Shown: positions 5,886 to 15,728 of the stretch, piece after piece
How the letters are laid out: the number at the start of each line of letters is the position of its first letter
Position numbering within the stretch: the stretch's first letter is position 1
DNA from: Desulfurobacteriaceae bacterium
GTDB taxonomy: Bacteria > Aquificota > Aquificia > Desulfurobacteriales > Desulfurobacteriaceae
DNA: 57,072 nucleotides
Direction of reading: 5' to 3'
Assembly (NCBI GenBank): GCA_027068415.1
Contig: JAMOTD010000002.1
Coordinates: 1-57,072, forward strand
Notes under the pieces: model-generated
Told to the model about the DNA's origin: nothing
The model's input: the letters and a program-made list of their open reading frames with translations, nothing else
Databases searched by the model: none
Program-made: the position numbers and the translations under genes

Positions 5886-5918
5886 TCAGTCTTAACAGCT
5901 TGATTTTTGGGGGTGCAG

Positions 5919-6986
5919 TTGGAATTCCACATAGACAGGGCAAAGGTTTTACCCAAGGCAAACCTGTGGGAACTCCTTGAAGGATTAAAGAAGCGCTACA
6001 AACTGATTGCTCCGGTTAAGGAGGGGGAGAAGTTCGCTTTCAGGGAGATTTCCGACGTCTCTTCCGTTGAGCTTAACTACACAAGGACAATCCTTCCCCC
6101 GAAGAAGTTTCTTCTCCCCTACCGCCGTGAGAGGTTCTCCTACGACCCCGAAACGATGGAGTTCAAGAGCTCCTTCAAGGCCGAAGAGCAGGTAATTTTC
6201 GGAATTCACTCCTGCGACCTTCACGGAATCTCAATTCTTGACTCAATCCACCTTAAAGAAAACCCCGACCCCCGCTACCTTGAGGTAAGGAGGAAGACAA
6301 TCCTCATAGGGATTTCGTGCTTTCCAGACGAGTACTGCTTCTGCCTCTCAACCGGGACGGCCTTCCCCGACGGCGCAAACTGGGACCTCTTCCTCACTGA
6401 TGTCGGACCCGACTACTTCGTCTCAATCGGAAGCCCCAAGGGGGATGAGATAGTCCTTACCTTTAAGCACCTCTTCAGGGAGATTGAAAAGGAGGACTTA
6501 GAGCTCTACAAGAGGAGCACCGCCAAGAAGAAGAGGGCTTTTAACGAGGAAAACCTCCCCGACCTTGAGAGAATTTCACAGTTAATAGAGCTTGAGTACG
6601 ACTCCCCCGTATGGGAGGAGGAGGCAAAGAGGTGTTTGGGGTGCGGAACCTGCACCAACACTTGCCCCACCTGTTTCTGCTACACCAGTGTTGACGTCCC
6701 CGACCTTACGGGGAAGGAGGTTAAGAGGATAGAGTTCATCACCTCCTGCCAGTACCCCTACTACTCCCTCGTTGCGGGAGAGCACTACTTCAAGCCCACG
6801 AGAACCTCCCGCTTCAGGCACCGCTACTACCACAAGTTTGTCGGATATCCCTACCAGATAGAGAAGTTGGGGTGCGTCGGGTGCGGAAGGTGCACCGCCG
6901 AGTGCCCCGCCGGGATAAGCATGGTCAAAACCATAAAGAGGTTGAGAGGAGTAGATGAAAAAGAGCTTAGAGAAGTTACTGAATAA
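5919..6986 (+). CDS. hydB: Group 3b hydrogenase iron-sulfur subunit (beta)
   Basis: Electron-transfer subunit of a cytoplasmic sulfhydrogenase-type [NiFe] hydrogenase, about 355 residues, related to anaerobic sulfite reductase subunit A. It passes electrons between the delta and gamma subunits. Two C-terminal [4Fe-4S] sites are visible: C-L-G-C-G-T-C-T-N-T-C-P and C-V-G-C-G-R-C-T-A-E-C-P. A further cysteine-rich stretch (C-F-P-D-E-Y-C-F-C) lies mid-protein. TTG at 5919 follows GGGGGT with 4 bp spacing; GTG 5913 and TTG 5907 are in-frame alternatives. First gene of the operon, in the same order (hydB-hydG-hydD-hydA) as in archaeal sulfhydrogenases. Confidence 0.92.
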   Translation: MEFHIDRAKVLPKANLWELLEGLKKRYKLIAPVKEGEKFAFREISDVSSVELNYTRTILPPKKFLLPYRRERFSYDPETMEFKSSFKAEEQVIFGIHSCDLHGISILDSIHLKENPDPRYLEVRRKTILIGISCFPDEYCFCLSTGTAFPDGANWDLFLTDVGPDYFVSIGSPKGDEIVLTFKHLFREIEKEDLELYKRSTAKKKRAFNEENLPDLERISQLIELEYDSPVWEEEAKRCLGCGTCTNTCPTCFCYTSVDVPDLTGKEVKRIEFITSCQYPYYSLVAGEHYFKPTRTSRFRHRYYHKFVGYPYQIEKLGCVGCGRCTAECPAGISMVKTIKRLRGVDEKELREVTE

Positions 6987-7836
6987 GCCGCTTCCGGCAA
7001 ATCCGTTTCTGCCCTTAAAGGCGGTTATAACCGACGTTGAGGAGCTGGCTCCCGAGCACAAGAAGTTTACCTTCTCATTCCTTGAGCCCTCTGCCTGCGA
7101 GAGGTGGAGCCACATTCCCGGCCAGTTCGTAATGCTTACCGTTCCAAAGGCCGGAGAAATTCCCATCTCAATCTGCTCCTCCCCTACGAGGAAGGGGGTA
7201 ATAGAGCTTACCGTCAGGAAGGTCGGGAGGAAGACCGAAGTCCTCCACAAGCTCGGGCCCGGCGACCTCGTTGCTATAAGGGGACCCTACGGAAACGGCT
7301 TCCCCGTTGAGATTATGGAGGGACACAACGTTCTGATAATAGCCGGGGGGCTCGGAATAGCTCCCCTGCGCTCCCTAATCTGGTACATCCTTGACAGGCG
7401 CCACCTCTTTAAGGATGTCTACCTCCTCTACGGAACGAGGAACTACGAGGCCGTTCTCTACAAGGATGAGCTCTCCCGCCTTAAAGAGAGGAAGGACATA
7501 AAGTGCCTCTACATCCTTGACAGGGTTGAAACTCCCGAGGACGAAAAGTGGAGCTCTGGAAGGGAGGGCCTCATAACGGAGCTCATCGGAGAGGTTGAGC
7601 TTGAGCCCTCTGAAACCTTCGTTGCAGTCTGCGGGCCGCCGGTTGCCTACAAGTTCATCGGCAAGGAGCTCCTTAAGAACGGCTACCCCGAGAGCCAGAT
7701 TTTTGTCTCCCTTGAGAGGAAAATGGAGTGTGGAATAGGCAAGTGCGGCCACTGTCAAATCGGCTACAAGTTTGCCTGCGTTGACGGTCCGATTTTCCCC
7801 CTTTGGGATACAAAAAACCTTCCGGAGATGATTTAA
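6955..7836 (+). CDS. hydG: Group 3b hydrogenase FAD/NAD(P)-binding subunit (gamma)
   Basis: Flavoprotein that exchanges electrons between the hydrogenase and NAD(P)(H), 293 residues. A ferredoxin-reductase-like FAD barrel (I-P-I-S-I-C-S-S-P; G-P-Y-G-N-G-F-P) is followed by a nucleotide-binding domain (I-A-G-G-L-G-I-A-P-L-R-S; V-A-V-C-G-P-P-V). The C-terminus has four cysteines (M-E-C-G-I-G-K-C-G-H-C then F-A-C) for a [2Fe-2S] cluster, as in dihydroorotate dehydrogenase electron-transfer subunits. ATG at 6955 overlaps hydB by 32 bp and has GAGG just upstream, so translation is probably coupled. Confidence 0.93.
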   Translation: MKKSLEKLLNKPLPANPFLPLKAVITDVEELAPEHKKFTFSFLEPSACERWSHIPGQFVMLTVPKAGEIPISICSSPTRKGVIELTVRKVGRKTEVLHKLGPGDLVAIRGPYGNGFPVEIMEGHNVLIIAGGLGIAPLRSLIWYILDRRHLFKDVYLLYGTRNYEAVLYKDELSRLKERKDIKCLYILDRVETPEDEKWSSGREGLITELIGEVELEPSETFVAVCGPPVAYKFIGKELLKNGYPESQIFVSLERKMECGIGKCGHCQIGYKFACVDGPIFPLWDTKNLPEMI

Positions 7837-8598
7837 ATGGTGAAGGTAGGAATTGTAGGCTTAACGGGTTGCTCTGGGTGTCAGTGTGAAATCCTAAACT
7901 GCCAGGACGCCCTTTTAAAACTCCTGACTCTGGTTGACTTTGCCCTCTTTCCCCTTGCAAAGGACGGGGAGTTTGACGGGGAACTTGACCTCCTTTTTGT
8001 TGAGGGCTCCGTTTCAACCTTCCTTGATAAGGAGAAACTCTTAAAGCTCAGGGAGAAGGCGAAAATCCTCGTTGCCGTGGGCTCCTGTGCCTGCTACGGA
8101 GGGGTTCAGGCCCAGAGGAACGACGAGGCCGAGCTTGAGCAGATGATCAGGGAAGTTTACGGAAAATGGGAGCTCCCTTTTGAGCTCTTTAAACCATCCC
8201 CCCTTTCCGACTTCGTTGAGGTTGACTACTTCCTTCCCGGCTGTCCCGTTGACAAGAAGCAGTTTGTCTATACGGTTGCCTCCCTCTTAAACGGGGTTAA
8301 GCCCTTCTTTCCCAAACTTCCCGTCTGCCACGAGTGTAAGCTTTCTGAGAACGAGTGCCTTCTGTTAAAGGGAGTTCCCTGTCAGGGGCCCGTCTCTTAC
8401 GCAGGGTGCGGAGCTCCCTGCACCGCAAAGGGGGTGGGCTGTCAGGGTTGCAGAGGAGACTGCGACTTCCCCAACCACCAGGAGATGCTCTCCCTCTTAA
8501 CCCAGAGGGGTCTTTCCTACGAAGATGCCGTCAAGTTCCTTAAAGTTTTCAGGGGAAACTCATTCAAAGTGAGGGGATTAAATGAGAAAGGAGCTTAA
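7837..8598 (+). CDS. hydD: Group 3b hydrogenase small subunit (delta)
   Basis: Small subunit carrying the cluster proximal to the [NiFe] site, 253 residues. The N-terminus G-L-T-G-C-S-G-C-Q-C-E has the proximal-cluster cysteines, followed by G-S-C-A-C-Y-G-G and P-G-C-P-V-D. The C-terminal third is cysteine-rich (C-H-E-C-K; C-Q-G-P; G-C-G-A-P-C; G-C-Q-G-C-R-G-D-C) and should hold two more [4Fe-4S] clusters. There is no twin-arginine signal, so the enzyme is cytoplasmic. It starts directly after hydG and overlaps hydA by 17 bp. Confidence 0.93.
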   Translation: MVKVGIVGLTGCSGCQCEILNCQDALLKLLTLVDFALFPLAKDGEFDGELDLLFVEGSVSTFLDKEKLLKLREKAKILVAVGSCACYGGVQAQRNDEAELEQMIREVYGKWELPFELFKPSPLSDFVEVDYFLPGCPVDKKQFVYTVASLLNGVKPFFPKLPVCHECKLSENECLLLKGVPCQGPVSYAGCGAPCTAKGVGCQGCRGDCDFPNHQEMLSLLTQRGLSYEDAVKFLKVFRGNSFKVRGLNEKGA

Positions 8599-9892
8599 CA
8601 TCAACCACCTGACCAGGGTTGAAGGCCACGGTGCCGTTGACATAGTTATTGAAAACTCAAGGCTTTCCGAGATAAGGCTGAGGTTTACAGAAGGCCCCCG
8701 TTTCTTTGAGTTCATAACGAGAGAGAGGCTCTATACCGAAATTCCCAAGATAGTCTCCCGTATTTGCGGAATCTGCTACGTCTCCCACAGGCTCGCCTCC
8801 GTCTTTGCCGTTGAGGACGCCTTCGGCGTAAAGGTAAATAGGGGCATAGAGCTCTTAAGGAGCCTCTTAACCGTCGGGGAGTACCTTGAGAGCCACTCTC
8901 TCCACCTCTACTTCCTGGCCCTGCCCGACTACATGGGCTATCCCTCAACCCTCCTGATGGCAAAGGACTACCCCAACGTGGTCAAGCGGGGCTTTAAGCT
9001 GAAAGAGGCCGGAAACAGGATAATGAAGCTGATAGGGGGCAAGACCGTTCACGGTGAGAACATTTTGGTTGGCGGCTTTGCCTCAATTCCCTCTCAGGAG
9101 GAGCTCAAGAAGGTAAGGAGAGAGCTCCTTAAAGTAATCCCCGAGATTGAGGCAACCCTCTTTCTCTTTGACGGCCTTGACTACCCTGACTTTACCTCGC
9201 CCCATACCCTTGAGATGTGCCTTAATTCCCCCTCACCCTGCCTCTTTTCCTCGGAAGTTTGGCTCTCGGACGGAACGACCTTCACAAAGAAGGAGTACGA
9301 GCTCTTTGTAAGGGAGGATGTTTCCCCTTACAGCACCGCCAAGGTCTCAAGGGTTAAGGGTGAGCCCTTCCTTATCGGCCCCCTTGCAAGGGTCAACAGG
9401 CTCTTTAAAGAGGAAGAGCTCCACCCGAAAGTTTCCGAGGCCGTAAAGAGGCTGAAGAACACTTTCCCCTCAAAGAACAGCCACCTTGCAAACCTTGCAA
9501 GGGCGGTTGAGCTCCTTGACGCAGCTTACAGGGGTGTTGAGCTAATTGAGGAACTTCTGTCCCTCTACCCATTTGAGCCTTCGGTTGAGGTTAACCCCCG
9601 GGCTGGAACGGGCTTCGGCGTAAAGGAAGCCCCCAGGGGAACCCTATACCACAAGTACACCTTTGACTCCTCCGGTAGGTGTGTCGGGGCCAACATCATA
9701 ACCCCGACGGCTCAGCTTCAGTCGGTAATTGAGGAGGACCTGAAGGCCATAGTTGAGGAGAGCCTTGAGGCTGAAGGAGAGGAGATAAAGAAGCGGGCCG
9801 AAGTTCTCGTAAGGGCTTACGACCCCTGAATTGCCTGTGCAGTCCACCAGTTCGGTGGAGAGTTTGAGACAGTGAAAGTTATCAGGAGATAG
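8582..9892 (+). CDS. hydA: Selenocysteine-containing [NiFeSe] hydrogenase large subunit (group 3b, alpha)
   Basis: Catalytic subunit that splits or forms H2. A naive reading ends at TGA 9827-9829 after 415 residues and lacks the C-terminal metal ligands. Reading TGA as selenocysteine extends the frame to TAG at 9890-9892 (436 residues) and yields D-P-U-I-A-C-A-V-H: Sec416, Cys419, His422. With Cys62 and Cys65 of R-I-C-G-I-C-Y-V-S-H this completes the four-ligand site, Sec replacing one Cys. A SECIS-like hairpin follows the UGA. The true stop is 2 bp before the next GTG, whose ribosome-binding site lies in the last codons, as expected if ribosomes reach 9892. The tail after His422 (14 residues) would be cut off by a maturation protease. 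A plain nonsense mutation is the alternative and fits poorly. Confidence 0.92.
9830..9859 (+). promoter_or_regulatory. Bacterial SECIS element directing UGA recoding
   Basis: TCCACC at 9843-9848 pairs perfectly with GGTGGA at 9854-9859 around the 5-nt loop AGTTC. The apical loop starts 19 nt after the UGA (9827-9829) and has G as its second base. Bacterial SECIS hairpins, bound by SelB, normally have the apical loop about 16-37 nt from the UGA and a G in the first two loop bases, so both rules are met. An outer CTGT (9835-9838) can also pair with an ACAG downstream (9869-9872), extending the structure across an internal loop. Confidence 0.82.
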
Positions 9893-9894
9893 CC

Positions 9895-10365
9895 GTGGTT
9901 GAGGAGTGCAGGCTATTTAGTGACTTTTCGCCGATTGAGAAGGGAGCTCTCTCGGCAGTCTTAACCCCCGTCTTCTTTGATGAAGGAGAGCTCCTCTTTG
10001 ACGAGTTTCAGGAGGCCGACTCAATCTACTTCATTATGGAAGGAGTTATAGGCCTTTACAGGAGCGACAACTTCGGAAGGTGGACAAAAGTTGCCGCCGT
10101 TTACGGCGGAGCTCCCTTAGGGGAGTGTGCCTTCTTCCTCAAAAAGCCCCACTCTTTGAGGGCTGTGGCCGAAAAGCCCGTTAAGGCTTTAAAACTAACA
10201 AAAAATGGTGCAGAGAGGTTAAAGAGAGAGACTCCCGAGGTTTACGCGAAGCTGGTTGAAAAGCTCGTTGCCATTATGGCCGAGAGGCTAAAGTCGGAAG
10301 ACGCCAAATTCTCTCAGATATGTGGATTTTTCTCTGTTCCGGGAGGGAATAGATGGAGAAGGTAG
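9895..10365 (+). CDS. Cyclic-nucleotide-binding-fold protein without DNA-binding domain
   Basis: A 156-residue protein with one Crp/Fnr-type cNMP-binding beta-barrel (about residues 5-120: F-S-D-F-S near the start, I-Y-F-I-M-E-G-V-I-G-L-Y in the middle, then L-G-E-C-A-F-F-L). A helix follows, but no helix-turn-helix domain. The phosphate cassette is atypical: L-G-E-C-A-F-F replaces the usual G-E-x-x-L/A-x-x-x-x-R-S/T-A-x-A, although R-A-V-A does occur after it. It may bind another ligand or act through protein contact. GTG at 9895 has AGGAG at 9884-9888 inside the last codons of hydA. Its place between two hydrogenase gene sets suggests a regulatory or assembly role, which is inference. Confidence 0.78.
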   Translation: MVEECRLFSDFSPIEKGALSAVLTPVFFDEGELLFDEFQEADSIYFIMEGVIGLYRSDNFGRWTKVAAVYGGAPLGECAFFLKKPHSLRAVAEKPVKALKLTKNGAERLKRETPEVYAKLVEKLVAIMAERLKSEDAKFSQICGFFSVPGGNRWRR

Positions 10366-12212
10366 TCTGGGCTCTAATTCTGATTCCGTGGGCTCTTGCT
10401 CTTGCGGTCTTTATCTCTCCGTGGCACAGGCTCAGGCAGGCTATAACCTTCCTCTCTCTGCCTGTTCTCGTTTACCTGACCTACCTCCTTTCTGATGGCT
10501 CTTTACCCCTCTTAATTCACACTCCCCACTGGGTCTCTCAGCTTATAACCCTCTACGACTTCCTCCTTCTCTTCTACTTCCTCTATCAAGGCTTGAAGTT
10601 CAGGAGCTTCCTCGTCTCCGTCCTATCCCTCTTTCAGATTTTCCTCCTGGTCTGGGTTCTCTTAATCCTTCCCCACAGGGAAGGGGCGGAGCTCCTTGTT
10701 GATAGGCTCACCCTCTTTATGTACTGGATTGTTGCCACGGTGGGTACCCTCATTTCAATCTACGCCACGAAGTACATGGAACAGGAGAACTTAGAGAGGG
10801 AGAACCGCTTCGTCTCTGTACTCCTGTGGTTCCTTGGGGTAATGAACTTTGCCGTTTCTGTAAATAACCTTGAGTGGTTCTTTGCCCTCTTTGAGACCAC
10901 AACCCTGGCTTCTTACGTCCTAATCAGGTTCAGGTGGGATGAAATCTCAATTAAGAACGCCCTTAGAGCCCTATGGATGAACCAGGTAGGGGGAATTGCA
11001 ATTCTCCTTGCAATCCTTTTTGCCGTTAAGTACTACGGCGTTTACAGGTTTACCGAAATCCTCGCAATAAAGGGGCACCTCATTTCAATGGTACCCCTGG
11101 GCTTCTTAGCAATCTCCGCCCTCGTTAAGGGAGCTCAGATGCCCTTCCACAGGTGGCTCCTTGGGGCAATGGTAGCCCCTACGCCGGTTAGCGCAATTCT
11201 CCACTCTGCAACCATGGTTAAGATTGCCCCTTACCTCATTCTCAGGCTCTCGCCGGTTATTAAGGGAACCCTCCTTGCAAAGCTTCTGATTATCACAACC
11301 GGTTTTGTCTTCGTCTCGGCAGGCCTTCTTGCCTTAACTCAGGATAACTTTAAGAAAATCCTTGCCTACTCTACCATTTCCCTCTTAGGGCTTATGATGC
11401 TTACCGGGGCGATGGGGAGCTCCACCGCCGTTTTGGCCTCACTCCTCCTAATCCTCTTTCACGCAGTCGTTAAGGCCCTCCTCTTTATGGAGGCGGGAGT
11501 TATGGAGAAGCTCTTTAAGGCTAAGTACCTTGAGGATATAAGGAGGCTGGTTGAGAGAGCTCCCGTAACCGTTTTCTTCGTATCAATCGGATTTATGAGT
11601 ATGACAATCGTTCCCTACGGAATTTTTGTTGCCAAGTGGCTGACACTGGAGGAGGCCTCAAACTTCCTCTCCCACGGAGCTTACGTGGGCTCAATTATCT
11701 TCGTTGCAACAGGAGGAGTAATCCTTACCCTTCTCTACTTTAAGATTATCGGAGTTATGACGAGAAAGAGGGAAGAGTTTTTTAGGTTCAGGCTTGAGAA
11801 GCTCCCCTTCGTTTACCTCTTCTCAACCGTCCCTCTCGTCGTCTTTACGATTGTAGGCTCAATCTTCATCGCCCTCCTCTCAACTAAGCTCATCAACCCC
11901 GTAGTTTCGCAGGTTGTGGGCTCTCCGGCCCCGATTAAGGCGCTGGGTCTGACCCTCCAAACGGGGGTTTCAGAGCTCTACGGCTGGCAGATTGTGGGAG
12001 CCTTCACTCTCCTCCTGATTGTTCCCGTCTGTGCCTACTTTATCCACTTCTCTGGAACTGATAGGGTTTTTACCTACACCTGTGGCGAGAGGGTTGAGCT
12101 CAACCTCGGAACCTACGACTTCCTCTGCATCTCACAGGTTGAGCCCCTGGTTGAGACTGTTTCAGTTGCCCTCTTCGTACTCACTCTCGTTCTTGGAGGA
12201 GGTCTGGTATGA
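10353..12212 (+). CDS. Group 4 hydrogenase antiporter-like membrane subunit (EchA-like)
   Basis: Large membrane subunit related to NuoL/NuoM and Mrp antiporter subunits, 619 residues with about 14-16 hydrophobic segments. It is thought to move H+ or Na+ in step with electron transfer. Family-typical blocks: W-F-F-A-L-F-E-T-T-T-L-A-S-Y-V (the conserved membrane Glu region), K-G-A-Q-M-P-F-H-R-W-L (loop Lys), A-P-T-P-V-S-A-I-L-H-S-A-T-M-V-K and Q-D-N-F-K-K-I-L-A-Y-S-T. The C-terminus C-G-E-R-V-E is typical of EchA/HyfB-like members. ATG at 10353 overlaps the preceding gene by 13 bp, with GGGAGG upstream. Confidence 0.9.
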   Translation: MEKVVWALILIPWALALAVFISPWHRLRQAITFLSLPVLVYLTYLLSDGSLPLLIHTPHWVSQLITLYDFLLLFYFLYQGLKFRSFLVSVLSLFQIFLLVWVLLILPHREGAELLVDRLTLFMYWIVATVGTLISIYATKYMEQENLERENRFVSVLLWFLGVMNFAVSVNNLEWFFALFETTTLASYVLIRFRWDEISIKNALRALWMNQVGGIAILLAILFAVKYYGVYRFTEILAIKGHLISMVPLGFLAISALVKGAQMPFHRWLLGAMVAPTPVSAILHSATMVKIAPYLILRLSPVIKGTLLAKLLIITTGFVFVSAGLLALTQDNFKKILAYSTISLLGLMMLTGAMGSSTAVLASLLLILFHAVVKALLFMEAGVMEKLFKAKYLEDIRRLVERAPVTVFFVSIGFMSMTIVPYGIFVAKWLTLEEASNFLSHGAYVGSIIFVATGGVILTLLYFKIIGVMTRKREEFFRFRLEKLPFVYLFSTVPLVVFTIVGSIFIALLSTKLINPVVSQVVGSPAPIKALGLTLQTGVSELYGWQIVGAFTLLLIVPVCAYFIHFSGTDRVFTYTCGERVELNLGTYDFLCISQVEPLVETVSVALFVLTLVLGGGLV

Positions 12213-13045
12213 GTCTTGCTCTTTTAATTACCCTCCTTTCGCCGGTTATCGGAGGTTTCGTTTACGGAGTTGAGAGGATTTTAAGGGCGAGGATGCAGGG
12301 AAGGGTCGGGCCTCCCCTTCTTCAACCTTTCTACGACTTCTTCAAGCTCCTTGAAAAGAGGAGCATGGTAATCCACTCCTTTCACGCCTTTATGGGGCTT
12401 ATGTACCTGCTGGGAACGTGGTTCTCGCTTTACGTCCTTCTCTCGGGCGGCGACATTTTGATTGCAATCTTCTTCCACCTCCTCTCCCTTGCCTTCCTCG
12501 TTGTCGGCGGCTTCAGCGTCCGCTCTTCCTACTCTATTCTCGGCTCAATGAGGGAGCTCCTCCACATGGTCGCCTACGAGCCGGTTTTCGTTCTTGCCGC
12601 CGCGGGCCTTTACCTGATAACAGGAACTTTCCAGATTTCCCAAATTCTCCACTCGGATAAGCTCCCCCTTCTCTACTTGCCCTTAGTTTTCATCGCACTC
12701 CTTCTAACCCTGCCCTCAGTTTTAAAAAAATCTCCCTTTGACGTTGCTGAGGCCCACCAGGAGATTATCGGCGGCCCCGAGATTGAGTACTCGGGAAAGT
12801 TCTACGAGGCCATCTACACCGCCAAGTGGATTGAGTACGTTTACGCCTTCTTCTTCGTCTTCCTCTTTGCAGGAGGGAGCTGGTGGCTGGGAGCTCTGCT
12901 GGTTCTCCTTTCCTTCTTCCTCGTCAACCTGATTGATAACGCTACCGCAAGGGTCAACTTCAGACAGATGGTTGCCTTCCACTGGTGCGTTCTTATTCCC
13001 CTTGTGGTGATAAACCTCATGCTACTTGCCCTGTGGAGGAGTTAA
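12209..13045 (+). CDS. Group 4 hydrogenase membrane subunit (EchB-like, NuoH family)
   Basis: A NuoH/HyfC-type subunit of 278 residues with about eight membrane segments; it forms the channel next to the hydrophilic arm. The family signature R-I-L-R-A-R-M-Q-G-R-V-G-P-P-L-L-Q-P-F is at residues 23-41. S-P-F-D-V-A-E-A-H-Q-E-I-I-G-G-P-E-I-E-Y-S-G sits in the second half, where NuoH has its conserved acidic loop. The ATG overlaps the previous stop by 4 bp. Confidence 0.93.
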   Translation: MSLALLITLLSPVIGGFVYGVERILRARMQGRVGPPLLQPFYDFFKLLEKRSMVIHSFHAFMGLMYLLGTWFSLYVLLSGGDILIAIFFHLLSLAFLVVGGFSVRSSYSILGSMRELLHMVAYEPVFVLAAAGLYLITGTFQISQILHSDKLPLLYLPLVFIALLLTLPSVLKKSPFDVAEAHQEIIGGPEIEYSGKFYEAIYTAKWIEYVYAFFFVFLFAGGSWWLGALLVLLSFFLVNLIDNATARVNFRQMVAFHWCVLIPLVVINLMLLALWRS

Positions 13046-13047
13046 AG

Positions 13048-13572
13048 ATGGACTTTAAGAAATTCAGGAAGAAATCGCCGTGGCTTCTTCACTACAACAC
13101 TGGAAGCTGTAACGGTTGCGACATTGAAATCCTCGCCTGCCTTGCCCCCAAATACGACCTTGAAAGGTTTGGAATACTAAACAGGGGAAACCCGAAACAG
13201 TCTGACGTTTTGATAGTTACCGGCCCCGTTACTAAGAGAGCCAGGGAGAGGCTAATCCGCCTCTATTTTGAGATGCCCGAGCCCAAAGTTGTCGTTGCGG
13301 TGGGGGCCTGTGCCTGCACTGGAGGTGTCTTCAGACACATGTACAACGTTTTAAACGGGGTTGATAAAGTAATTCCCGTTGACGTTTACGTTCCCGGCTG
13401 TGCCGCAAGGCCGGAGGCCATAATTGACGGAGTTGCGAAGGCCCTTGAAATCCTTGAGAAGAAAAAGAAGGACTTTGTTCCTCCTAAAGTCTGTAAGAAC
13501 GTTGAAGTTAAAGAGCCCATTAACAGGAAATTCCTCCTTGAAAAGTGTCTGGGGGTAAAGAATGAAGGTTGA
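13048..13572 (+). CDS. Group 4 hydrogenase small subunit (EchC-like, NuoB family)
   Basis: Carries the [4Fe-4S] cluster next to the active site, 174 residues. Cysteine ligands: G-S-C-N-G-C-D-I-E near residue 20, G-A-C-A-C-T-G-G, and P-G-C-A-A-R-P-E. The frame is open from 12985, but ATG at 13048 has GGAGG a few bases before it and gives the usual length, so the longer form is rejected. The 3' end overlaps the next gene by 11 bp. Confidence 0.93.
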   Translation: MDFKKFRKKSPWLLHYNTGSCNGCDIEILACLAPKYDLERFGILNRGNPKQSDVLIVTGPVTKRARERLIRLYFEMPEPKVVVAVGACACTGGVFRHMYNVLNGVDKVIPVDVYVPGCAARPEAIIDGVAKALEILEKKKKDFVPPKVCKNVEVKEPINRKFLLEKCLGVKNEG

Positions 13573-13906
13573 GGAAATTAAGGTTCCCCTGAGAGATGTT
13601 AGGAGAACAGTAAAGGAGTTCTACAACGAGAACGAGTGGCACTTTATAACCGTTAACGCCGTTGACCTGGGCGGCAAGGTGGAGCTCAAATGGTTCTTCA
13701 CCCGCTACGGCGAGGATGAGTACTTCAGAGTGGTAGTTGCCCAGGCCTCCTACGATGAGGAAATCCCCACCCTGACCTACCTGATACCCTCTGCCTGGAT
13801 TTCTGAGTGGGAGCTTGCAGACCTCTTCGGCCTTAACGTTGAAGGGGCAAAGACAGGCCTCTTCCTTGAGCCCGACAGCCCCAGAGCACCCCTTAGGAGA
13901 GGTTAG
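13562..13906 (+). CDS. Group 4 hydrogenase subunit (EchD-like, NuoC family)
   Basis: A 114-residue NuoC-type (30 kDa subunit-like) protein, as short as EchD. The central beta sheet region F-I-T-V-N-A-V-D-L and the C-terminal P-S-A-W-I-S-E-W-E-L-A-D-L-F-G-L matches the NuoC signature (E-R-E-x-x-D-L-F-G), followed by the proline-rich end L-E-P-D-S-P-R-A-P-L-R-R-G. It supports the docking of the large subunit. In an overlapping chain with the small and large subunits. Confidence 0.88.
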   Translation: MKVEEIKVPLRDVRRTVKEFYNENEWHFITVNAVDLGGKVELKWFFTRYGEDEYFRVVVAQASYDEEIPTLTYLIPSAWISEWELADLFGLNVEGAKTGLFLEPDSPRAPLRRG

Positions 13907-13909
13907 GAG

Positions 13910-14995
13910 ATGGGAAAGAGGATAACAGTACCCTTTGGAAGCCAGCACGTTGCTCTTCCCGAGCCGATAAAGTTTGTCTTTCAAACTGAGAACGAGAAAA
14001 TTACCTCTGTTGAGGTTGACGTAGGTTACGTCCACAGGGGAATTGAGAAGGCCTGCCAGACGAAGTTCAAGTACACTCAGGTCGGCTACGTCGTTGCAAG
14101 GGTGTGCGGCCTTTGCTCAATCTCCCACACCCTCGGCTACGTTACGGCGGTTGAGAGGTTGATGGGAGTTGAGGTTCCCAAAAGGGCTCTCTATCTGAGG
14201 TTGATAGTCAGCGAGCTTGATAGGGTCCATTCCCACCTCCTTGCAATGGGGCACACTGCAGAGGTTGCCGGCTACGAGAACCTCTTTATGCAGACCTTCA
14301 GGTACAGGGAGACTGCTATGGAGCTCCTTGAGCTCCTTACGGGGAACAGGGTTCAGTACGACTACGCCACAATCGGCGGGGTTAACAGGGACTTGACTCC
14401 CGACGTTGCAAAGACTCTGAAGGAGAGGTTAAAGGAGCTCAAAGAAAGGTGCCTCTGGATTAAGGACGTCTTTGAGAACGACTTTACCCTGAAGCTCAGG
14501 TGGAAGGGGGTGGGAGTTGTTACCAAAGAGATGGCAAAAAGGTTTAACGTTGTAGGCCCCCCTGCAAGGGCGGCAGGCCTTGAGACCGACTGCCGTGCAG
14601 AGTTTAACTACCTTCCCTTTAAAGAGCTGGGCTTTAAACTCGTTGTTAGAAATGGCGGGGACATCTACGACAGGAACCTTGTAAGGGCTTACGAGGTTAT
14701 AAACTCTATTGAGATGGTTGAGAACGCCCTTGAGGGGCTCCCTGAAGGGGATGTGAAAGTTGCGGTTAAGGGCCTTCCCGACGGCGAGAGTTTCGTTAGG
14801 GTTGAAGCTCCGAGGGGTGAACTCTTTTACTACGTTAAGGGCTCAAAGAAGATGGTTCTTGACAGGGTCAGAATAAGGGTTCCGACCTTTGCAAACATTC
14901 CCGTTATGAAGGAGCTCTTTGTAGGAATGGACTACGCCGACGTTCCTGCAACGGTAATCAGCTTTGACCCGTGTCTCTCCTGTACTGCAAGGTAG
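13910..14995 (+). CDS. Group 4 hydrogenase large subunit (EchE-like, NuoD family)
   Basis: Catalytic [NiFe] subunit of the membrane-bound energy-converting hydrogenase, 361 residues. L1 motif R-V-C-G-L-C-S-I-S-H has Cys66, Cys69 and His73. The C-terminus is D-P-C-L-S-C-T-A-R with Cys355 and Cys358 and no further tail, the group 4 form ending at the conserved Arg. All four nickel ligands are ordinary cysteines, unlike the group 3b enzyme upstream. With no residues after the motif there is nothing for a maturation protease to remove. It probably couples ferredoxin and H2 to ion transport across the inner membrane. Confidence 0.95.
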   Translation: MGKRITVPFGSQHVALPEPIKFVFQTENEKITSVEVDVGYVHRGIEKACQTKFKYTQVGYVVARVCGLCSISHTLGYVTAVERLMGVEVPKRALYLRLIVSELDRVHSHLLAMGHTAEVAGYENLFMQTFRYRETAMELLELLTGNRVQYDYATIGGVNRDLTPDVAKTLKERLKELKERCLWIKDVFENDFTLKLRWKGVGVVTKEMAKRFNVVGPPARAAGLETDCRAEFNYLPFKELGFKLVVRNGGDIYDRNLVRAYEVINSIEMVENALEGLPEGDVKVAVKGLPDGESFVRVEAPRGELFYYVKGSKKMVLDRVRIRVPTFANIPVMKELFVGMDYADVPATVISFDPCLSCTAR

Positions 14996-15005
14996 GGGGT
15001 GAGAG

Positions 15006-15329
15006 GTGAGGTTTCTCCGTGGACTGCTCCTCTCCCTTATCCTCTGCGGCAGTGCCCTTGCCTGCAGTAGCGACTGCTCCCAGTGCCACACAGTTCCGAA
15101 AGATAGGGAGCACGCCGTTCTCTCTACCTGTGCCTCCTGCCACAGGGAGCACCCGGAAAAGGCCTTTGAGGGAAGGTGCGGTGCAGACTGTTTTGACTGC
15201 CACGACTATAAAAAGGTTATGGAAATCTCCCCCGCCCATAAAGTTTTAGTTAGGTGTGCCGAGTGTCATAAAGCCTTGAAGGAGAAGAGTATTCCCTTGC
15301 CACTTAAGGAGCTCTTGGGAGGTGAATAA
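15006..15329 (+). CDS. Small periplasmic tetraheme cytochrome c
   Basis: A 107-residue protein with an export signal (M-R-F-L-R then a hydrophobic stretch to A-L-A at residue 19) and four C-x-x-C-H heme c motifs at residues 24-28, 42-46, 62-66 and 84-88. Extra histidines at 36, 49 and 78 could be second axial ligands. The A-L-A site fits signal peptidase I better than a lipobox. The start is GTG at 15006, 10 bp after the EchE-like stop. A cytochrome c on the other side of the membrane is not part of classic Ech, which makes its place in this operon odd. I do not recognise a specific named family. Confidence 0.9.
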   Translation: MRFLRGLLLSLILCGSALACSSDCSQCHTVPKDREHAVLSTCASCHREHPEKAFEGRCGADCFDCHDYKKVMEISPAHKVLVRCAECHKALKEKSIPLPLKELLGGE

Positions 15330-15728
15330 ATGAAAGAAATGTTGATTCAGAGCATAAAGAACCTTTTCAGCAAGCCCGAGACCGTACTATATCCGGCAGA
15401 GCCGTCCCCTCCTCCGCCGGGCTACAGGGGGCTTATAGTTTACGAGGAGAGCCTCTGCATCTTCTGTACCAAGTGTGAGCTTGTCTGCCCTCCCGGCGCA
15501 ATAAGGTTTACTTACACCGACGACGGAAAAAAGAAGTTCCACTACAACCCTTACCTCTGTATTTACTGCGGGGAGTGTGTAAGGGCCTGTCCCAAGCCCG
15601 GCTGTTTAACTCAGGTTGAGGAGACAGCTCCTCCCGAGACCTCTCCTCCCGACTGGGACTCCCTTGAGAGGGAGGCGGAGGAGAGTAAGAAGCGCTTCCT
15701 CGCAAGCAGGAAGAAGAAAAAGGGTTAA
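15330..15728 (+). CDS. Group 4 hydrogenase ferredoxin-like subunit (EchF-like, NuoI family)
   Basis: A 132-residue protein with two [4Fe-4S] motifs, C-I-F-C-T-K-C-E-L-V-C-P and C-I-Y-C-G-E-C-V-R-A-C-P, as in EchF/HyfH/NuoI. It links the soluble electron carrier (ferredoxin) to the small subunit. The C-terminus is a proline- and charge-rich tail ending in lysines. The ATG follows the cytochrome stop with no gap, and GGAGG lies upstream. It completes the six-subunit Ech set and closes the operon; the next gene is convergent and overlaps by 4 bp. Confidence 0.93.
   Translation: MKEMLIQSIKNLFSKPETVLYPAEPSPPPPGYRGLIVYEESLCIFCTKCELVCPPGAIRFTYTDDGKKKFHYNPYLCIYCGECVRACPKPGCLTQVEETAPPETSPPDWDSLEREAEESKKRFLASRKKKKG

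Follow-up and report, generated by a model that had tools for sequence, protein, structure and literature searches.

An in-frame UGA predicted to encode selenocysteine at the nickel site of a group 3b [NiFe] hydrogenase in the Desulfurobacteriaceae

We analyzed a 57,072-nucleotide stretch of DNA (the window) from a thermophilic vent bacterium of the family Desulfurobacteriaceae (phylum Aquificota). It carries four consecutive genes for the subunits of a hydrogenase, the last of which, hydA, contains an in-frame TGA. The features of the locus are the following.

5907-6986, + strand: hydB-like beta subunit (iron-sulfur protein); NF040833 sulfhyd_HydB, 318.6 bits (below the curated cut-off of 750); Fer4_22
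6955-7836, + strand: hydG-like gamma subunit (FAD/NAD(P)-binding diaphorase); NF006220, 322.6 bits; NF040830 ShyC, 271.2 bits
7837-8598, + strand: hydD-like small (delta) subunit; NF040836, 185.5 bits; Oxidored_q6
8582-9892, + strand: hydA, large (alpha) subunit of a [NiFe(Se)] hydrogenase, 436 aa if the TGA is read as selenocysteine
9827-9829, + strand: in-frame TGA, predicted Sec416, first residue of the C-terminal nickel motif DP-U-xx-C-xx-H
9843-9859, + strand: predicted bacterial SECIS apical hairpin UCCACC-AGUUC-GGUGGA, with a 6-bp stem and the loop AGUUC, the loop lying 19 nt after the UGA
9848-9889, + strand: C-terminal tail QFGGEFETVKVIRR, 14 residues past His422; a maturation endopeptidase is expected to cleave it off
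9890-9892, + strand: TAG, the predicted true stop codon of hydA
9895-10365, + strand: cNMP-binding-domain protein (PF00027), with its ribosome-binding site (9884-9889) within the hydA extension
10353-15728, + strand: adjacent Ech-type membrane hydrogenase cluster, whose large subunit ends in the cysteine form DPCLSCTAR

Translated with TGA as selenocysteine, HydA ends in RAYDP-U416-IAC419AVH422-QFGGEFETVKVIRR followed by the stop codon. By sequence position, the selenocysteine would replace the first cysteine of the C-terminal CxxC nickel motif (DP-U-xxC-xxH). Both N-terminal nickel ligands, C62 and C65 (RICGIC), are present, so U416 and C419 would supply the missing half of the ligands, and a halt at the TGA would cost HydA two of the four. 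Including the C-terminal extension raises the score of the protein by about 19 bits against both the ShyA model (340.7 versus 321.2 bits) and the HydA model (305.5 versus 286.9 bits). The AlphaFold model of HydA shows a hydrogenase fold (pLDDT 88.7), but segment 418-436 falls below a pLDDT of 50 and the model is therefore uninformative on the nickel geometry. A separate small selenocysteine subunit resembling VhuU was considered and rejected because the extension is in frame with hydA, with starts judged from the list of open reading frames.

The preliminary description of this DNA had placed the TGA where the first cysteine of DPCxxCxxH is needed, followed the same frame through IACAVH and 14 more residues to the TAG at 9890, and argued that half of the nickel ligands would be absent without readthrough. 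It had also put the ribosome-binding site of the next gene inside the extension. All of this, including every coordinate, agrees with the sequence: C62 and C65 lie upstream of the TGA and C419 downstream, and an AGGAGA at 9884-9889 precedes the GTG at 9895. The cNMP-binding-domain protein that starts there is 156 aa long, has no match to a DNA-binding domain, separates hydA from the Ech cluster, is kept in relatives (loci L024 and L025) and is possibly a regulator. Inside the Ech cluster, between the large and ferredoxin subunits, a 107-residue ORF (15006-15329, + strand) has four CxxCH motifs and a start resembling a signal peptide, with no Pfam match. It is likely a tetraheme c-type cytochrome, and has a counterpart at 12440-12760 of L025. 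Searches of the 57,072-nt window against Rfam and for tRNAs returned no match.

The gene set and the sequence and fold matches support assignment of the enzyme to group 3b of the [NiFe] hydrogenases, as had been proposed. The beta, gamma, delta and alpha subunits characteristic of this group are all encoded, including the NAD(P)/FAD diaphorase subunit, in which NAD_binding_1, FAD_binding_6 and DHODB_Fe-S_bind domains were recognized. The best NCBIfam relatives of the beta, gamma and delta subunits are mostly subunits of sulfhydrogenases or NAD(P)-dependent hydrogenases, all scoring below equivalog cut-offs; the top model for gamma is that of a cytochrome-c3 hydrogenase gamma subunit. Similarly, the best models for HydA are ShyA and HydA, with scores below the curated equivalog cut-offs. 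Its closest relative is sulfhydrogenase I of Pyrococcus furiosus both by sequence (E = 1.7e-83) and by fold (TM 0.91, 36% identity), and it is more distant from group 3c, 3d and 1a enzymes.

A survey of 136 genomes of the phylum identified a match in 48. A single TGA inside the match is found in 14 genomes (the window's included) belonging to six genera of Desulfurobacteriaceae, the relatives being 64-87% identical at the protein level. Named relatives of the gene come from Desulfurobacterium, Thermovibrio and metagenome-assembled genomes of the family. All 14 read DP-TGA-IACAVHQFGG, the sole difference being one Gly-to-Gly codon change. The 12 cysteine homologues inspected, by contrast, all have a TGT or TGC codon at the site; four are from genomes of one genus of the family (g4), two from a neighbouring family and six from distant genomes. 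The motif is DPCISCSVH in the g4 genomes and the neighbouring family and DPCISCATH in the distant homologues. The column of codon 416 holds cysteine or TGA in every one of the 26 homologues that were aligned. The tail residues QFGG are invariant among the selenocysteine forms and variable among the cysteine forms. In a maximum-likelihood tree, whose root was not tested, all selenocysteine rows fall on one side of a single branch (94/94 support) and all others carry cysteine, so one cysteine-to-selenocysteine gain is the simplest history; most simply, selenocysteine would have been gained once, from cysteine, within the family.

This distribution bears on two other explanations of the TGA. A sequencing error, with TGA standing for TGC or TGT, or a recent nonsense mutation is refuted because the TGA recurs in 14 genomes that were assembled separately, including one in a single contig; loss of the downstream motif in close relatives, which had been raised as a possible objection, is likewise not seen in any of the 14. 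It is also very unlikely that the UGA is an ordinary stop, leaving a 415-residue protein with two nickel ligands missing whose role is limited to NAD(P)H-linked reduction of sulfur or polysulfide, or is purely structural. The standard-code ORF does end at UGA 9827, and the gamma and beta subunits could conceivably act without a nickel site. However, IACAVHQFGG and the synonymous sites past the UGA are frozen in the 14 genomes, the motif is kept in every cysteine homologue, and C62 and C65 are retained. We likewise rejected the reading of hydA as a pseudogene.

The predicted SECIS hairpin begins shortly after the UGA. The bacterial SECIS model, with criteria as summarised in PMC13188914, demands a stem of 4-16 bp, a loop of 3-9 nt with G in one of the first two positions, a distance of 16-37 nt after the UGA, and a minimum free energy of at most -7.5 kcal/mol. 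The window's hairpin passes (6 bp, AGUUC, 19 nt, -8.6 kcal/mol) this check, which the preliminary description had suggested, and the model is satisfied by 13 of the 14 selenocysteine genes compared with none of the 12 cysteine genes. The exception is the TGA-bearing hydA of one genome (G019), which has lost the outermost closing pair and misses the energy threshold. Random synonymous recodings of the hydA tail also pass in 5.6% of cases, so that the hairpin alone is weak evidence in a single gene. The stem is invariant and consequently shows no covariation. Strong evidence for an RNA signal after the UGA is instead provided by codon freezing. Of the 171 degenerate hydA codons with an invariant residue, just 8 never change across the 14 genomes; codons 416, 419, 421, 422, 423 and 425 make up six of them. 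When residue-matched codons were drawn from the rest of hydA for hairpin codons 421-426, none of 100,000 draws reached the observed freezing.

The window's genome (1.6 Mb, 34 contigs) encodes selA (623 bits), selD (374 bits) and a complete selB with the C-terminal SECIS-binding winged helix (437 bits), all above curated cut-offs. The selD gene has an in-frame UGA of its own, and a hairpin whose loop is GGUC comes after it. Of the four sel genes that the preliminary description had named as a check on its reading, these three were found; selC, encoding tRNA-Sec, was not found in this assembly, where a pattern search gave chance matches only. A tRNA-Sec with the anticodon TCA is present in 20 of 22 genomes of the family (79-84 bits). 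In a genome of the same genus (G020) it is flanked by a PHP-domain gene and radA, both identified by reading translations, and adjoins a tRNA Gly-Met-Tyr-Thr cluster. One contig of the window's genome (C33) starts inside this cluster. The 2.4 kb next to the cluster has no match of its own in the window's genome beyond tRNA cross-matches, and radA, which is normally widespread, has no match over the cut-off anywhere in the assembly. The next genes beyond the block occur on another contig (C14), but are then followed by other sequence, and the local order may differ in the window's strain. Because the whole selC-radA block is unassembled and tRNA-Sec occurs in nearly all genomes of the family, the absence of selC is most readily explained by a gap in assembly or binning. 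The assembly is rated 99.98% complete, yet it is without radA, selC, the PHP-domain gene and part of the tRNA cluster at one syntenic place.

Insertion of cysteine or tryptophan at the UGA, through suppression or a reassigned code, is extremely unlikely. Cysteine would suit position 416, and the selC gene is absent from the window's assembly. However, TGA is a normal stop that ends 8 of the 28 window genes, by which a global reassignment of UGA was rejected; moreover, selA, selB and selD are present, the SECIS-like hairpin lies just past the UGA, and the family's tRNA-Sec has the matching anticodon.

A partial survey of the selenoproteome found two UGA-containing proteins in the window's genome, HydA and SelD. 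The formate dehydrogenase homologue of this genome is a cysteine form (ARICHAPS), and its group 1 hydrogenase ends in the cysteine form DPCIACAVH. Among the 22 family genomes, the selenocysteine form of formate dehydrogenase was found only in G009 and G015. There the alpha subunit genes (L105 and L104, respectively) have an in-frame TGA (CARL-TGA-HAP) followed, as judged by eye, by a hairpin with a GGUCU loop; other members of the family have the cysteine form. The four genomes of genus g4 (G010-G013) keep tRNA-Sec though their HydA has cysteine, and no match to formate dehydrogenase was found in them. It is conceivable, if on balance rather doubtful, that most of these bacteria keep the selenocysteine machinery mainly for the group 3b hydrogenase, and that selenium supply decides between full-length HydA and the 415-residue form without half of its nickel ligands.

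Taken together, UGA 9827 very probably encodes selenocysteine at the nickel site of a group 3b HydA, and the sequence supports the preliminary description on this point. The enzyme to which this large subunit belongs would be cytoplasmic and coupled to NAD(P). SelA and SelD would make Sec-tRNA(Sec), and SelB would bind the hairpin just past the UGA and deliver it, allowing the codon to be read as selenocysteine and translation to continue to TAG 9890. Nickel would then be bound by Sec416 in place of the first C-terminal cysteine, in an [NiFeSe] site completed by C62, C65 and C419. By analogy to the known maturation of [NiFe] hydrogenases, an endopeptidase is expected to remove the tail past His422, presumably after nickel insertion. 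The selenocysteine may also benefit catalysis, for example by making the enzyme resistant to oxidative damage.

If so, the range of [NiFeSe] hydrogenases would extend to another subgroup (3b) and another bacterial phylum (Aquificota). Within the family, thermophilic NAD(P)-coupled hydrogenases with selenocysteine and with cysteine would also form a natural pair for testing the role of selenium, which is relevant to the use of oxygen-robust enzymes for producing H2 or NAD(P)H. Automatic annotation likely cuts the catalytic subunit HydA short, possibly also in the databases behind the published physiology of these vent bacteria.

Selenocysteine had been described at the outset as known in some group 1 and methanogen hydrogenases and unusual in group 3b. 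Consistent with this, HydDB lists [NiFeSe] variants in groups 1a, 3a and 3c and not in 3b (PMC5037454), and a 2026 review (PMC13188914) limits [NiFeSe] hydrogenases to sulfate reducers and methanogens. We found no report of a selenocysteine group 3b hydrogenase in the open-licence literature, and an earlier report elsewhere is possible. HydABCD of Thermovibrio ammonificans and Desulfurobacterium thermolithotrophum, members of the same family, are described as group 3b or as group 3 NAD(P)-dependent (PMC5441870, PMC12724263). The T. ammonificans paper assigns HydABCD to group 3b and notes a tRNA-Sec with no link to the hydrogenase (PMC5441870). In D. thermolithotrophum HR11, HydBCDA was detected by proteomics and was 10.5- to 17.7-fold up at a low H2 concentration of 2 uM (PMC12724263; public dataset PXD070557). 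We found no mention of selenium in a hydrogenase in either paper, a text search of PMC12724263 for 'seleno' being empty.

Sulfhydrogenase I (soluble hydrogenase I, group 3b) of Pyrococcus furiosus has the same four-subunit gene set as the enzyme described here. However, it is archaeal and has cysteine (DPCISCSVH) instead of selenocysteine. The group 1a [NiFeSe] hydrogenases, such as Desulfovibrio HysA and that of Desulfomicrobium baculatum, have selenocysteine at the first C-terminal cysteine position. They resemble HydA in this substitution of a nickel ligand and in the bacterial in-frame UGA, but belong to another subgroup of periplasmic enzymes from sulfate reducers and are only about 24% identical to it. 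The group 3a and 3c [NiFeSe] hydrogenases of methanogens (Fru, and Vhu with VhuU) share the UxxC motif and are, like HydA, cytoplasmic group 3 enzymes. They differ in being F420-reducing or linked to heterodisulfide reductase, in using an archaeal SECIS, and in that VhuU is a separate small subunit.
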